64,000 nt of DNA from an uncultured SAR86 cluster bacterium. GTDB lineage: Bacteria; Pseudomonadota; Gammaproteobacteria; Magnimaribacterales; AG-339-G14. The stretch spans positions 124,001 to 188,000 of the forward strand of contig CABZAV010000001.1 in the NCBI GenBank assembly GCA_902523885.1, read 5' to 3'. Positions 9,880 through 27,080 of this stretch are shown piece after piece. The notes below the pieces were generated by a model, which searched no databases, was not told the origin of the DNA, and was given only the letters and a program-made list of their open reading frames with translations. Positions within the stretch are counted from its first letter, which is position 1. Each line of letters opens with the position of its first letter. The position numbers and the translations under genes were made by a program.

Positions 9880-12270
9880 TTAAACAACAAAATTGATAAG
9901 TTTTTTTTCTATGAAAATAGTTTTTTTAATTTTTTTATCAATGATAAATCTTTTAACATTTTCTAATTCCTTGGAAAGCATAATAATTTCTTTTTCAGAT
10001 TTCTCTTCGTCTAATTCTAATGACCCTCTCAATTTCCCATTTACTTGAATAATTAATTTATAAGTCTTTTCCTCCAACAAATTAGAATCAAAAGTAGGCC
10101 ATGCTTCACTATAAATTTCTCTTCCATTTTGTAAAACATTCCAAAGTTCATGTGTTATGTGAGGACTTATTGGGCTTAGCATTAGAAGAGATGAATCTAT
10201 TATTTTTTTAAATAGTTTTCTTTCTTCCTCAGGAATTTCACTTTTTTGCAATTCTTTTGGTACTGCATTCATTAGTTCCATTATTGCTGCTATAGCTGTA
10301 TTAAATGAATTTCTTCGTTCGAAATCATCCGATACCTTTTTTATAGTTTGATTTAATTTTATTTCTAACGGTTTTAAGTCTAGTGAAGAATTTAGGGCAA
10401 GACTTTTTTGGTTTTTTAGAATAGATGCAAGTTTCCATAACTTGTTTAAAAATTTAAATGATCCTTTTACTCCATCATTAGACCATTCTAAGGATTGCTC
10501 AGGCGGAGAAGCAAACATTGAGAAAAGTCTTACTGTATCGGCACCGTAACGATCAATAAGCTCTTGAGGATTTACAGTATTACCTTGAGATTTTGACATT
10601 TTATTTCCATCCTTAAGGACCATGCCTTGACACAATAGCTTATGGAAAGGTTCTCTAAATTTTACTAGACCCAAATCATTCAAAGCCTTAGAAAAAAATC
10701 TTGAATATAATAAATGCAAAATAGCATGTTCTATTCCTCCGATGTATTGATCTACTGGTAACCAATAATCAACTTCTTCATCAAAAATTTTTTCTGAAGA
10801 TTTGTGAGATGCAAATTTTGCAAAATACCACGAAGATTCAAGGAAAGTATCGAATGTATCAGTTTCTTTAATATATTCATTTCCATTTTTTACTAAAACC
10901 TCAGAGTTTATTTCTTCTTGATTTAGATCCGAAAATGGGATGACATCAGCGGAGTCTTTCTTATTTATCATCATTGGAATAGGTGCGCCCCATTTCCTTT
11001 GTCTTGAAACTCCCCAATTTTTAAGTCGGTAATTTACCTTTTTAGATCCAAAATTATTATCTTTGGCCAGCTTTAAAATCTTTTCAAAAGCTTTTTCAAA
11101 ATCAAGGCCATCAAGTTCATTTCCTGAGTTAATAAGTAAACCTTTTTCTATAAGAGCTTTATCAAGTTCAAGTGCTCCTTCACCTGTGTCAATGACCTGC
11201 TTTATTTCAATATTATATTTTTTGGCAAATTCAAAATCTCTCTGATCGTGACCTGGAACAGCCATTAATGCACCAGATCCATAATCCATCAAAACAAAGT
11301 TAGCAACCCAGACTTCTATTTCTTCTTTTGAAATGGGGTGTTTAGCTTTGATATTTAATTTAAATCCTTTTTTGTCTTCAGATATCCTCTCTGCTTCAGA
11401 TGTAACTCCCTTAGAATTATTCTTTAACCATTCTTCAAGATTTTTATCCTCTTTAGCTAAATTGGTAACAATAGGATGCGCAAGAGAAAGCGCAAGAAAA
11501 GAAACTCCCATGATGGTATCTGGTCGAGTCGTAAAAACCTCAATATGTTCTTTATTTGACAGACTAAATTTGAATTCCATCCCGATCGATTTACCAATCC
11601 AATTTTTTTGCATTGTTTTTACTTGCTCAGGCCAATCTTTTAAAGAGTCAAGTTCAGAGAGAAGTTCTTCTGCATAGTCGGTTATTTTAAAAGCCCACTG
11701 ATCTATAGTTTTTTTTTCAACATCTGCTCCTGATCTCCAGCCTTTACCATCAATTACTTGTTCATTTGCCAAAACCGTTTGGTCTACTGGATCCCAATTT
11801 ACTTCTGTTTTTTCTCTTATAACTAATCCTTTTTTATACATTTCGCAGAAAAGCCACTGCTCCCACTTGTAATATTCCTCGTCGCAAGTTTTTAGTTCTC
11901 TTCGCCAATCATAGGCAAATCCTAAAGAAGAGAGCTGTCTTTTCATAAATTGGATATTGTCCTCAGTCCATTTTTTTGGTGAGACATTATTTTGAATAGC
12001 GGCATTCTCTGCTGGAAGACCAAATGCGTCCCATCCCATAGGCTGCATAACATTCATACCTTTCATTCTCTGATATCTAGAAATTACGTCTCCGATTGTG
12101 TAATTTCTTACATGCCCCATGTGCAATTCTCCTGAGGGGTAAGGAAACATACTTAAACAGTAATATTTTTCTTTTTTATTATCAGGATTAACTTCAAAAG
12201 ATTTATTTTTTTCCCAGTAAGCTTGAGCTTTTTTTTCTAAATCAGCAGGATTATAGGAATCTTCTTTCAT
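9880..12270 (-). CDS. leuS: leucyl-tRNA synthetase
   Basis: CLSMFPYPSGELHMGHVRNYTIGDVISRYQRMKG (HIGH-like), KMSKSQGNTVNPQELIDRYGADTVRLF (KMSKS). Confidence 0.97.
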   Translation of the reverse strand: MKEDSYNPADLEKKAQAYWEKNKSFEVNPDNKKEKYYCLSMFPYPSGELHMGHVRNYTIGDVISRYQRMKGMNVMQPMGWDAFGLPAENAAIQNNVSPKKWTEDNIQFMKRQLSSLGFAYDWRRELKTCDEEYYKWEQWLFCEMYKKGLVIREKTEVNWDPVDQTVLANEQVIDGKGWRSGADVEKKTIDQWAFKITDYAEELLSELDSLKDWPEQVKTMQKNWIGKSIGMEFKFSLSNKEHIEVFTTRPDTIMGVSFLALSLAHPIVTNLAKEDKNLEEWLKNNSKGVTSEAERISEDKKGFKLNIKAKHPISKEEIEVWVANFVLMDYGSGALMAVPGHDQRDFEFAKKYNIEIKQVIDTGEGALELDKALIEKGLLINSGNELDGLDFEKAFEKILKLAKDNNFGSKKVNYRLKNWGVSRQRKWGAPIPMMINKKDSADVIPFSDLNQEEINSEVLVKNGNEYIKETDTFDTFLESSWYFAKFASHKSSEKIFDEEVDYWLPVDQYIGGIEHAILHLLYSRFFSKALNDLGLVKFREPFHKLLCQGMVLKDGNKMSKSQGNTVNPQELIDRYGADTVRLFSMFASPPEQSLEWSNDGVKGSFKFLNKLWKLASILKNQKSLALNSSLDLKPLEIKLNQTIKKVSDDFERRNSFNTAIAAIMELMNAVPKELQKSEIPEEERKLFKKIIDSSLLMLSPISPHITHELWNVLQNGREIYSEAWPTFDSNLLEEKTYKLIIQVNGKLRGSLELDEEKSEKEIIMLSKELENVKRFIIDKKIKKTIFIEKKLINFVV

Positions 12271-13610
12271 TAATTTATATCTAAAACTTTTTCTAAGTAG
12301 TTTATAGATATATTTGCTTTTCTAAAGTTCTCTTCGCTTAAAATAATTTCTTGTAGTTCTTTGTTCGTATCTATTCCTTCAACAAAAAATTCTTCTAAAG
12401 CAAAGGACATTCGACACAAAGCTTCTTCTCTGTCTTTACCCTGTGTACAAATTTTTGCTATCAAAGCATCATAATAAGGAGAAATAATGCATCCGTCATA
12501 AACGTGAGAATCGACTCTCACTCCAATACCCCCTGGCTTACCCCATTCTGTTATCTTTCCTGGAGACGGAATAAATGTTTTTGGATGTTCAGCATTTATT
12601 CGACACTGAATTGCATGACCACGAACACTAATTTCTTCTTGTTTTATTTCAAGTTCTTCACCTGCTGCTATTCCAATTTGAAGCTTAACTAGATCATAAT
12701 CGGTAATCATTTCCGAAACAGTATGTTCAACCTGTAATCTAGTATTCATTTCTATGAAATAAAATTCTTCATCTTTGTATAAAAACTCAAAAGTTCCAGC
12801 ACCTTTGTATTTCATTTTTTTACAGCATTCAGTACACAATTTAAATAATTCTTGTTTTTTTTCTTCAGGAATATTTAAAGCTGGAGCTTCTTCAACAATT
12901 TTTTGATTTTTCCTTTGAATCGAACAATCCCTTTCATAAAAATGAAGTGCATTTCCAAAATTATCTGCTAAAACTTGGACCTCAATATGTCGAGGGCTAT
13001 CAAGAAATTTCTCTAAATATATTTCATCGCTTCCAAAACTGTTTAAAGCCTCTTGCTGAGTCAATTTCATTTTTGGAATTAAATCCTTTTCTTCATAGAC
13101 TATTGAGATTCCTCTTCCTCCGCCTCCAGCCGCTGCTTTTATCATTATTGGATAACCAATTTCTTTAGCTTTTGACAAAGTTTCCCTGTTGGTAGCCGAA
13201 ACCCTCCCGCTTCCTGGTACGCACTGTAAACCAGCATCAACAGCCATCTCTTTTGCTGAAATTTTATTACCCATAATTCTTATAGATTCTGGATCTGGAC
13301 CGATGAACGTGTAGCCACTTGCTATTACTTGTTCAGCAAAATGATCATTCTCCGCTAAAAAGCCTACCCCTGGATGAATAGCCTCAGCATTAGTTAATTC
13401 ACATGCACTTATAATTGCAGGAATATTCAAATAACTTTTTGATGACTCAGGAGGACCAATGCATACAGCCTCATCAGCCATTTTTACATGTTTTAAATCT
13501 TTGTCAGCCTCTGAATATATTGCAACCGTGCCGATACCCATTTCTTTGCATGCTTTAAGAACTCTAAGAGCAATCTCACCTCTATTGGCGATTAAAATTT
13601 TTGAGAACAT
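12270..13610 (-). CDS. accC: acetyl-CoA carboxylase biotin carboxylase subunit
   Basis: FSKILIANRGEIALRVLKACKEMGI, IKAAAGGGGRGI, FIEMNTRLQVEHTVSEMITDYDLV. Confidence 0.96.
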   Translation of the reverse strand: MFSKILIANRGEIALRVLKACKEMGIGTVAIYSEADKDLKHVKMADEAVCIGPPESSKSYLNIPAIISACELTNAEAIHPGVGFLAENDHFAEQVIASGYTFIGPDPESIRIMGNKISAKEMAVDAGLQCVPGSGRVSATNRETLSKAKEIGYPIMIKAAAGGGGRGISIVYEEKDLIPKMKLTQQEALNSFGSDEIYLEKFLDSPRHIEVQVLADNFGNALHFYERDCSIQRKNQKIVEEAPALNIPEEKKQELFKLCTECCKKMKYKGAGTFEFLYKDEEFYFIEMNTRLQVEHTVSEMITDYDLVKLQIGIAAGEELEIKQEEISVRGHAIQCRINAEHPKTFIPSPGKITEWGKPGGIGVRVDSHVYDGCIISPYYDALIAKICTQGKDREEALCRMSFALEEFFVEGIDTNKELQEIILSEENFRKANISINYLEKVLDIN

Positions 13611-14072
13611 TTATTCTTCTATTACAAAAAGAGCTTCCCCATATTCAACTGGCTCAGCATCAGAAATTAAGATTTCTTTGATTATTCCGTTGTAATCTGA
13701 TTTAACCTCATTCATCATTTTCATAGCTTCGATGATGCATAACACATCACCTTCAGAAACTTTATCTCCGACTTTAACAAACGGCTCAGCTCCAGGATTA
13801 GGAGAGCTATAAAAAGTTCCAACCATAGGAGAATTTATACTTTTTCCGTCTATGACTTTGGTCTCGGCTGTTTCAGAAGTCTCTTTTTTAGTTTCTGTCT
13901 CTGAAGAAGGAGATTCCATTACTTGAGGTGAGGGAGTAATCTTTTGGGGGGCTTGAAAAGATCCTGCAGATTTAACCAATTTAACCGATTCTTCACCTTC
14001 TTTAATTACAATTTCATTCAAAGAAGAATTTTCTAGCATTTCAATTAATTTTTTTACTTTTCTAATATCCAT
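13611..14072 (-). CDS. accB: acetyl-CoA carboxylase biotin carboxyl carrier protein
   Basis: Biotinylation motif IIEAMKMMNEV; SPMVGTFYSSPNPGAEPFVKVGDKV. Confidence 0.96.
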   Translation of the reverse strand: MDIRKVKKLIEMLENSSLNEIVIKEGEESVKLVKSAGSFQAPQKITPSPQVMESPSSETETKKETSETAETKVIDGKSINSPMVGTFYSSPNPGAEPFVKVGDKVSEGDVLCIIEAMKMMNEVKSDYNGIIKEILISDAEPVEYGEALFVIEE

Positions 14073-14080
14073 AATAACTC

Positions 14081-14515
14081 CTAGGTTTTTTCCATTGCCA
14101 AATTTAAGGCTGCCTCGTACCCTTTATCTCCAAATCCAGAAATAATTCCTAACGCAATATCAGAAAAGTAAGATTTTTCTCTAAAACTTTCTCTGCCGTA
14201 TATATTACTTATGTGAATTTCAATCATAGGAATGTCCACGCCTAAAATTGCATCTCTCAATGCAACACTTGTGTGCGTAAAGGCTCCAGGATTAAATAAT
14301 ATACAAGAGACTTTATTTTTTTTTGCGTCTTGAATTGCATTTACTAATTCGTGTTCAGCATTGCTTTGAAAACATGAAAGATTGATAGAATTGTTTTTAG
14401 CTATTTCTAGAAGATTTGACTCAATTTCCTCTAAAGTAAGTGAACCATAGATTTCTTTTTCTCTAGTGCCTAAGAGATTTAAGTTAGGCCCATTTAGTAA
14501 AAGAATGCTTTTCAT
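14081..14515 (-). CDS. aroQ: 3-dehydroquinate dehydratase, type II
   Basis: [51 protein letters not shown]. Confidence 0.95.
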
Positions 14516-14551: not shown

Positions 14552-14998
14552 TTAAAGAAATTCAAAGAAAATATTTGATTTATTATCCTTTTTGATTTTA
14601 ATGTTTTTTGAAATTTTTGGGTAACAAATAATATTTTCTAAACATCCTTGGTAAGTAAGTGTCAAGGATTTGTTGGTATATTTATCTAAGTTTCTTACCA
14701 ATAAGTCCAAATTATTCCTATATATTAAGCTTTCTCCTAGAAATTCATCTTCAATTTTTAATAGTTTCCCAATACTCTCATAGGAGATATCGTTTTGGCC
14801 ATCTTTTAAAGACAATTGTTCTGAGTATATATAAGATTTTTTATTTATTAATATGGAAATAATAAGATCGTCTTCATATTCTCTTGATGAAAGTTTGAAT
14901 GAATCTTCAGAGGACAATATTTCAGAAGAAAAAAAATTTTCCGATGAAGAGTGAATATTCAGGGTTAAGAATAAAAAAGGAATGAGTATTTTTTTCAT
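14552..14998 (-). CDS. stand-alone DsbD N-terminal (alpha)-like domain protein
   Basis: Signal peptide; EDEFLGESLIYRNNLDLLV and TLTYQGCLENIICYPKISK match the DsbD-alpha pattern (C-x5-C); ends after 148 aa with no transmembrane or thioredoxin domain. Confidence 0.75.
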   Translation of the reverse strand: MKKILIPFLFLTLNIHSSSENFFSSEILSSEDSFKLSSREYEDDLIISILINKKSYIYSEQLSLKDGQNDISYESIGKLLKIEDEFLGESLIYRNNLDLLVRNLDKYTNKSLTLTYQGCLENIICYPKISKNIKIKKDNKSNIFFEFL

Positions 14999-15094: not shown

Positions 15095-16759
15095 ATGTCA
15101 AAAAAACGGAAATATTCTTCCTCTTTAGTTGATGGTCCGCTTCAAGCAACATCTAGGTCAATGCTGAGGGCAACAGGATTTAGCGATGATGATTTTTCTA
15201 AACCGCAAGTTGGCGTAGCTTCAACTTGGTCAATGGTTACGCCTTGCAATATGCATATTAATGATTTGGCCTCGCTAATATGTAACTCTATTGATGATGA
15301 AAATTTGAAATCTGTGCTTTTTAATACAATCACGATCTCTGATGGAATATCAATGGGAACATTAGGAATGAGATATTCTTTAGTTTCAAGAGAAGTAATA
15401 GCTGATTCAATCGAAACGGTTGTTGAATGCCAGTCATTTGATGGAGTTGTTGCAATAGGTGGATGCGATAAAAATATGCCAGGTTGTCTGATAGGACTTG
15501 CAAGATTAAACAGACCTTCCATCTTTGTTTACGGTGGCTCAATCAGACCAGGTAAAAATCATACTGACTTAGTAACGGTCATGGAAGGTATTGGAAGTTA
15601 TAGTAGTAATAAGATTTCAGAAAAAGAATTAATTGCAATTGAAAAAACCGCACTACCTGGCCCTGGTTCTTGTGGAGGTATGTATACAGCAAATACTATG
15701 GCATCTGCAATAGAGGCTTTAGGCATGAGCTTGCCTGGAAGTAGCTCTCAAGATGCTATTTCAAAAGAAAAAAAACTAGATTGTAAAAGTATTGGAAAAG
15801 CTATCGACAATCTCTTAGAAAAAGACATAAAACCATCAGACATAATGACGCGCAAAGCATTCGAAAATGCTATCAGAGTAATTATTGCGCTTGGCGGATC
15901 TACAAATGCAGTTTTGCATTTAATTGCAATGGCTAAAAGTATTAATGTTGAGTTAGATATTGATGATTTTGAAAAAATAGGGAAAAAAAGTCCGCTGCTG
16001 GCAGATCTTAGACCATCAGGACATTATTTAATGTCTGAATTAAATGAAATAGGAGGTATTCAGCCATTAATGAAAACTCTTTTGGATGCGGATTTATTAC
16101 ATGGAGATTGTCTTACAGTTACTGGTAAAACTATTTCTGAGAATCTTAAAGATGTTGAACCATACCCTGAAAATCAAAAAATAATCTCGTCTTTGGATAA
16201 ACCTATAAAAAAAGATAGCCACTTGAAAATTTTAAAAGGAAATTTAGCAGAAGAAGGTGCAGTAGCTAAAATAACAGGTAAAGAAGGATTGAGATTTATT
16301 GGAAAAGCAAAAGTTTTCAATTCAGAAGAAGAAACTTTAGATGCAATTTATGGGTCTGAAATTAAGTCGGGAGATGTAATTGTTGTTAGATACGAAGGCC
16401 CAGTAGGAGGACCTGGAATGCGAGAAATGTTAAAGCCTACTTCAGCTATTATGGGACAGGGATTAGGCGATAAGGTTGCTTTTTTAACTGATGGTAGATT
16501 TTCCGGCGGTTCTCATGGGTTCGTTGTTGGTCATATCACTCCTGAAGCTGCAACTGGAGGTTTAATAGGTTTGTTAGAAAACGGAGATGAGGTGACAATT
16601 GATGCAGTAAAAGGAACTATTGATGCAAAATTAACTGAAGATGAAATTACCTTGAGGAAGAAAAATTGGATCAATCCAAAACCAATCCCGAGCAAAGGAG
16701 TTCTTTCAAAGTATGCAAGAAGCGTTAAATCAGCTTCTGAAGGAGCAGTAACTGATTAA
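15095..16759 (+). CDS. ilvD: dihydroxy-acid dehydratase
   Basis: [68 protein letters not shown]. Confidence 0.96.
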
Positions 16760-25947: not shown

Positions 25948-27080
25948 TATCTAAATAATGAGAAGTATTTTCTAATTTCACCAATGAAAATTTCTGGTTT
26001 TTCAAATGCAGCAAAATGTCCACCGGAATCTAAAACGTTGTAATAAGAAAGATTTGTATATCTCTTTTTAAGCCAGCGTTCGGAGGCTCGAAAGATTTCT
26101 TTTGGATAAACGCTGACACCAGTTGGCGTTGTAACTTCTTCGCCATCAAAGTCACCAAAACTCTCCCAATAGAGTCTAGCCGAAGATGTGGCGCTTTCAG
26201 TTAACCAGTAAAACATCACATTGGTAAGCAAATCATCTCTTGAAATCACATTTTCAGGATCGCCATTGCAATCCGTCCATTGGTAAAATTTTTCTATAAT
26301 CCAAGCTGCTTGTCCTATTGGAGAATCAGTTAATCCATAACCAAGAGTTTGAGGTCTAGTTGACTGTTGTTTTGAGTAACCTGAATCCCAATCTTGATAA
26401 AATTGAAATCCTGCTAAAGCGGATTGCTCAAGTTTGGTTAAATCATTCATGGTTTCCATGTCAGGTGCAACGATCGCCATATTTAAATGGATAGCTTCAC
26501 AGTTTTCGTCTTGCATACCTAAGGCAGTAGTTACAGCTGAACCCCAGTCTCCGCCTTGAGCAAAATATTTTGTGTAGCCCAGTTCTTTCATAAGTTGTCT
26601 GAATGTATCTGCAATTTTTTCAACCCCGAAACCAGGAGTTGTTGGCTTGCCTGAAAATCCAAAACCCGGTAGCGACGGTGTTACTATATGAAAAGCATCT
26701 TTTGGGTCTCCTCCGTTTAGGGTTGGATCGGCTAAAGGCTTGATAACCTTAAGAAATTCAACGATAGAGCCCGGCCAACCATGTGTAATGATCAAAGGCT
26801 TAGCTTCAGAATGAGGAGATTTAATGTGAATGAAATGAATATCTAAGTCATTAATTTTTGCTGTGAATTGGGGAAACGCATTTATTATTGCTAGTTCTTT
26901 ATTCCAATCGTACTCATTTAACCAATAAGAATGAATTTCTTTCATGTAAGACAATGGTATGCCTTGCGTCCAATCTGACGGGGTCTCTTTGTCAGGCCAT
27001 CTTGTGAGCTCGAGTCTCTTTTTTAAATCATCAAGTTTTTCTTCAGGTATGTTTATTGAGAAATCTTTTATTGTTGTCAT
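25947..27080 (-). CDS. epoxide hydrolase family alpha/beta hydrolase (EHN domain)
   Basis: FSINIPEEKLDDLKKRLELTRWPD (EHN), LIITHGWPGSIVEF, FAQGGDWGSAVTTALG, GGHFAAFEKPE. Confidence 0.88.
   Translation of the reverse strand: MTTIKDFSINIPEEKLDDLKKRLELTRWPDKETPSDWTQGIPLSYMKEIHSYWLNEYDWNKELAIINAFPQFTAKINDLDIHFIHIKSPHSEAKPLIITHGWPGSIVEFLKVIKPLADPTLNGGDPKDAFHIVTPSLPGFGFSGKPTTPGFGVEKIADTFRQLMKELGYTKYFAQGGDWGSAVTTALGMQDENCEAIHLNMAIVAPDMETMNDLTKLEQSALAGFQFYQDWDSGYSKQQSTRPQTLGYGLTDSPIGQAAWIIEKFYQWTDCNGDPENVISRDDLLTNVMFYWLTESATSSARLYWESFGDFDGEEVTTPTGVSVYPKEIFRASERWLKKRYTNLSYYNVLDSGGHFAAFEKPEIFIGEIRKYFSLFR

Follow-up and report, generated by a model that had tools for sequence, protein, structure and literature searches.

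A free DsbD alpha domain conserved at the dsbD locus of SAR86 bacteria

The N-terminal or alpha domain of DsbD (nDsbD) is a periplasmic redox hub: reduced by cDsbD, it delivers electrons to DsbC, CcmG and DsbG (PMC7347389). The redox potential given for nDsbD is about -229 mV (PMC3526765). In E. coli, the cysteine pair C103/C109 of this domain is shielded by a cap loop, D68-E69-F70-Y71-G72 (PMC7347389), and the order of electron flow has been established as beta, gamma, alpha (PMC4460558; PMC3526765). Natural separation of the domains is also represented by DsbD2 of L. pneumophila, a transporter without an alpha domain (PMC4491210), whereas in the SAR86 case described here it is the alpha domain that remains. 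For the related transporter ScsB, a role in CcmG reduction was stated in 2015 as not yet analysed (PMC4491210; PMC4460558). The literature searched yielded no description of a free nDsbD in SAR86.

The window, that is, the whole stretch of 64,000 nucleotides analysed, comes from a SAR86 genome of 1.11 Mb that is 88% complete. On its minus strand, an ORF of 148 aa with an ATG start was located at positions 14552-14998, in which a hydrophobic signal peptide is followed by a single domain with the motifs EDEFLGESLIYRNNL and YQGC-LENII-CYP. The HMM search proposed in the initial annotation returned a match to DsbD_N (PF11412) at 3.1e-13 over profile positions 3-116 of 119, with a score of 50.2 bits, twice the curated Pfam cut-off of 25 bits; no other Pfam domain was detected in the ORF. 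The NCBIfam DsbD model (PRK00293) was matched at 1.8e-20, covering profile positions 3-142 of 574 only. Among PDB entries, phmmer recovered E. coli DsbD-alpha (3pfu, 1jpe and 1l6p) at about 2e-10, and the best matches were aligned without gaps over 112 residues. Neither a membrane beta domain (DsbD_TM) nor a thioredoxin-like gamma domain with a CxxC motif was found in the ORF, and its stop codon lies 36 bp from the aroQ start, which therefore leaves no room there for a remnant of either. The initial description of a protein with a signal peptide and DsbD-alpha hallmarks that ends after 148 aa, with no membrane or thioredoxin-like domain, was thus confirmed at each of these levels.

Structure prediction, likewise suggested at the outset, led to the same family. 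An AlphaFold2 model computed from 36 orthologues reached a mean pLDDT of 87.5, and in a Foldseek search all 18 PDB matches at E < 1e-3 were nDsbD chains, with TM-scores of 0.67-0.81 by target length, including chains from complexes with DsbC (1jzd) and with cDsbD (1vrs). The absence of an nDsbD fold, named in advance as an outcome that would speak against the assignment, was not observed. The orphan shares with nDsbD of E. coli (1jpe, 1l6p, 3pfu) and N. meningitidis (6dps) the predicted Ig-like fold, the C-x5-C pair, the D-x-F-x-G cap loop, the signal peptide and the locus order of full-length dsbD. In contrast to the DsbD domain, it is free, soluble and unfused to beta and gamma.

The redox pair of the orphan, C119/C125, corresponds to E. 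coli C103/C109, and its cap loop, D84-E85-F86-L87-G88, to E. coli D68-G72; Y56 and Y58 belong to the same set of active-site residues. In 36 diverse SAR86 orphans, Y58, D84, G88, G118, C119 and C125 were invariant (Y42, D68, G72, G102, C103 and C109 of E. coli in the gapless PDB alignment), and Y56, Q117 and Y126 were nearly so. The window protein retains F86 (E. coli F70) and differs from E. coli DsbD in carrying leucine at the position of Y71. Outside these residues the domain is highly variable, with a mean column identity of 35% across the 36 orphans. The profile match, the predicted fold, and the invariant cysteine pair and cap loop place the protein in the DsbD-type family PF11412, and both the tree and HMM comparison separate it from the ScsB-type alpha domains. 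An HMM built from the orphans and DsbD alpha domains recovered DsbD alphas at about 1e-38 and no SAR86 ScsB alpha.

Downstream of the orphan, and on the same strand, aroQ (type II dehydroquinase, 14081-14515), accB (biotin carboxyl carrier protein, 13611-14072), accC (biotin carboxylase, 12270-13610) and leuS (9880-12270) complete a conserved block; upstream lies the divergent ilvD (15095-16759, plus strand). In the first set of 61 SAR86 genomes, the alpha-only ORF occurred 42 times, the window copy included, in families f1, f2 and f3. At all 41 loci besides the window, for which the flanks were read, it stood directly upstream of aroQ, and at 38 of them accB-accC-leuS followed. Three f3 loci (L064 909-3961, L066 830-3891 and L070 4131-7180) have leuS directly after aroQ, with accB and accC missing between. 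In most SAR86 loci ilvD was also near the orphan; an ABC transporter or other genes sometimes intervened. Among 15 sampled full-length DsbD loci of other gammaproteobacteria, 11, from ten families, had aroQ-accB-accC directly or shortly downstream of dsbD, aroQ being the gene that follows dsbD in the ancestral gammaproteobacterial order. The placement of the orphan at the ancestral dsbD locus, upstream of aroQ-accB-accC, in the initial annotation was therefore correct. In the betaproteobacterial Methylopumilus, dsbD is followed by a TlpA-like gene and then by aroQ.

In a tree of alpha domains, based on a short alignment with weak deeper forks, the SAR86 alphas formed one clade (support 99/95, 98% of bootstraps) that fell among the alphas of canonical DsbD, with the ScsB-type alphas in a separate group. 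Because full-length dsbD occupies the same locus elsewhere and the orphans fall among canonical DsbD alphas, it is well supported that a full-length dsbD at this locus lost its beta and gamma parts in situ. An assembly or frameshift artefact, with beta and gamma continuing in another frame, has practically no probability: aroQ begins 36 bp away, and the same arrangement recurs at 41 loci of separate genomes. It is also very improbable that the orphan is a decaying remnant without function. Such decay would fit the clean loss of two domains, an evolution faster than that of the neighbouring genes and the loss of the gene in one family; against it, dN/dS is far below 1, and the ORF is intact over 20 genera with an invariant active site. 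Among four close relatives, dN/dS of the orphan was 0.13-0.24 (NG86) and 0.18-0.31 (YN00). The gene is under purifying selection, looser than that on aroQ or accB, both of which it outpaces. We are accordingly highly confident that the SAR86 gene is a maintained free nDsbD, and its product seems complete and functional. The "clean domain erosion" first proposed holds insofar as beta and gamma were lost at the dsbD locus; it does not hold as recent or ongoing erosion, since the gene is maintained and pre-dates the family split.

Conservation of the truncation was evident across the SAR86 order, as the follow-up proposed in the initial annotation had asked: the orphan was found in 124 of 160 genomes and in 20 of 21 genera, and no copy among the 160 genomes sits in a frame long enough for a full DsbD. 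Eight f1/f2 genomes without the orphan were tested (G002, G019, G027, G035, G036, G046, G049 and G058). Most of these absences are explained by incomplete assembly, because aroQ was also not found in six of the eight, or lies at or near a contig end (G058, possibly G049). G019 yielded a partial orphan copy in the 160-genome survey. The case of family f4 (genus g7) is different: aroQ-accB-accC is present in the assemblies, preceded by a hemB-like gene and not by the orphan, and the loss is real. At three f4 loci (L143, L147 and L149), a hemB-like gene and a thioredoxin gene were observed upstream of aroQ. A tree of accC+aroQ, in which the other gammaproteobacteria served as outgroup, placed f4 beside f3, less surely than the remaining families as its branch is long; this position implies that the truncation preceded the divergence of the SAR86 families and that f4 lost the gene secondarily. 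The truncation thus took place before at least three SAR86 families diverged. SAR86 presents no new system: a known reducing system was rearranged long ago at the level of its domains, and the arrangement has been conserved.

The only other DsbD_N match and the only DsbD_TM match in the window genome fell in one 672-aa protein on contig G000:C4. Its N-domain matched PDB entry 6c29 at 3.5e-13 and no other PDB entry; this file, titled "Putative metal resistance protein", we take to be P. mirabilis ScsB. The likeness to ScsB includes a larger N-domain with C-x3-C, DsbD_TM and a gamma domain with CxxC; the orphan itself is not of this type and groups with DsbD alphas. The NCBIfam DsbD model covered the membrane and gamma parts of the C4 protein and not its N-domain, and a DsbD-type alpha HMM gave no match to the N-domain of this protein or of its SAR86 homologues. 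The C4 protein combines DsbD_TM with a CxxC thioredoxin-like domain, and all six redox cysteines were invariant in 12 homologues; judged from its sequence, it is a predicted complete alpha-beta-gamma transporter of the ScsB type. Exactly one DsbD_TM protein was present in 56 of the 61 SAR86 genomes, and none was found in the remaining five, all of which are incomplete assemblies. The sole DsbD_TM match always lay in a ScsB-type protein, and no separate DsbD_TM-only protein (CcdA) was detected in the 61 genomes. The CcdA-like electron donor suggested initially is therefore not seen in SAR86, in which the likely donor is the single ScsB-type three-domain transporter. A full-length DsbD elsewhere in the genome together with a non-conserved orphan had been named as grounds for rejection; a full-length relative of DsbD does exist elsewhere, but the orphan is highly conserved. 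A small candidate TlpA/ResA-like lipoprotein with CxxC, possibly an extra ScsB client or relay, is encoded some 14 kb away from the gene for ScsB (L154 6469-6912, G000:C4 about 26468-26911).

Candidate clients were present as well. DsbC was found in 51 of the 61 SAR86 genomes and DsbE/CcmG family matches in 60, above the cut-off in 52. In the window genome, CcmG is encoded inside the ccm cluster and DsbC on another contig; no gene linkage of the orphan to scsB, dsbC or ccmG was observed, these genes lying on other contigs. Family f4, which lacks the orphan, has retained ScsB and CcmG, and mostly DsbC; possession of those clients thus does not require a free nDsbD.

Since a candidate donor and candidate clients of nDsbD are present, the missing part is the DsbD beta-gamma portion, and SAR86 seems to keep the DsbD client interface with a different electron importer. 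In the path we propose, cytoplasmic thioredoxin would reduce the ScsB-type transporter, and electrons would move from ScsB beta to ScsB gamma. The periplasmic CxxC (gamma) domain of ScsB would then dock to the free nDsbD and reduce C119-C125, and the free nDsbD would in turn reduce DsbC and CcmG, with the ScsB alpha domain serving other clients in parallel. We consider it fairly probable that ScsB imports electrons which then reach DsbC/CcmG through the free nDsbD, the docking and transfer steps being deduced from the parts encoded. Against this path count the lack of linkage between the partner genes, the retention of ScsB and the clients in f4 after loss of the orphan, and the faster evolution of the orphan relative to aroQ or accB. 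More tentatively, SAR86 may possess a hybrid relay, composed of ScsB and a diffusible nDsbD adaptor for DsbC/CcmG, with a similar split into nDsbD and CcdA having arisen again in other gammaproteobacteria.

Two other functions were considered, both of them unlikely. The orphan could be a second-tier relay fed by another donor, for instance a periplasmic thioredoxin of the TlpA/ResA type that is itself reduced by ScsB. A TlpA/ResA-like CxxC protein is encoded in the window genome, and a gene of this kind stands between aroQ and dsbD in several other bacteria, or between aroQ and the alpha-only gene in the gammaproteobacterial genome G137; however, the SAR86 orphan locus has no TlpA-like gene, and the gamma domain, the usual reductant of nDsbD, is already part of the ScsB protein. 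Alternatively, the orphan could act on its own in the periplasm, as a chaperone or thiol buffer that no membrane transporter reduces any longer; this would agree with the lack of linkage to any transporter and with the variability of the domain outside its active site. A plain chaperone would not need the cysteines or the cap-loop residues, and so the invariance of both cysteines, D84 and G88 over deeply diverged families, with YQGC nearly invariant, counts against this function; its probability is as low as that of the additional thioredoxin donor. Reduction by ScsB stays the preferred reading.

The SAR86 protein is within known chemistry and known folds, and annotation is likely to label its gene a DsbD fragment. 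With a naturally detached, widely conserved nDsbD, two questions can be put cleanly: does the DsbD hub domain need its tether, and can transporters of the ScsB or CcdA type feed it? For the role of ScsB in CcmG reduction, SAR86, an abundant uncultured ocean group whose only transporter of this kind is ScsB, suggests a specific answer with two proteins.

Alpha-only genes upstream of aroQ were also found in four other gammaproteobacterial families (G115, G137, G160 and G197). The sole DsbD_TM protein was CcdA-sized in G115 (246 aa), G160 (258 aa) and G197 (244 aa), and the separation of alpha from its transporter therefore recurs; the SAR86 transporter, in contrast, is ScsB-type. G137 carries a ScsB-like split operon and another small DsbD_TM protein. 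CcmG was present in all four genomes and a clear DsbC in three. Since G137, G160 and G197 fall outside SAR86 on the accC+aroQ tree (support 100/99), from which G115 is absent, separate truncations in SAR86 and in the other alpha-only families are likely; on the short alpha alignment, a single clade of SAR86 and other alpha-only genes was not rejected (AU p 0.136). In G137 (L089 4348-5555 and L114 335-2136), the alpha-only gene shares an overlap with a gene for a TlpA/ResA-like thioredoxin, and the latter gene is followed by aroQ; elsewhere in this genome a ScsB-like alpha (193 aa) and a beta-gamma protein (400 aa) are encoded by two adjacent genes. G220 and G143 have short frames that were not accepted as alpha-only genes, because a DsbD_TM domain follows directly at a contig edge; the matches in Methylopumilus and Sulfurospirillum (beta- and epsilonproteobacteria) were also set aside, being full-length DsbD. 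Many full-length DsbD proteins of other gammaproteobacteria (L092, L094 and L098-L104) carry two tandem DsbD_N domains and are about 740-820 aa long.
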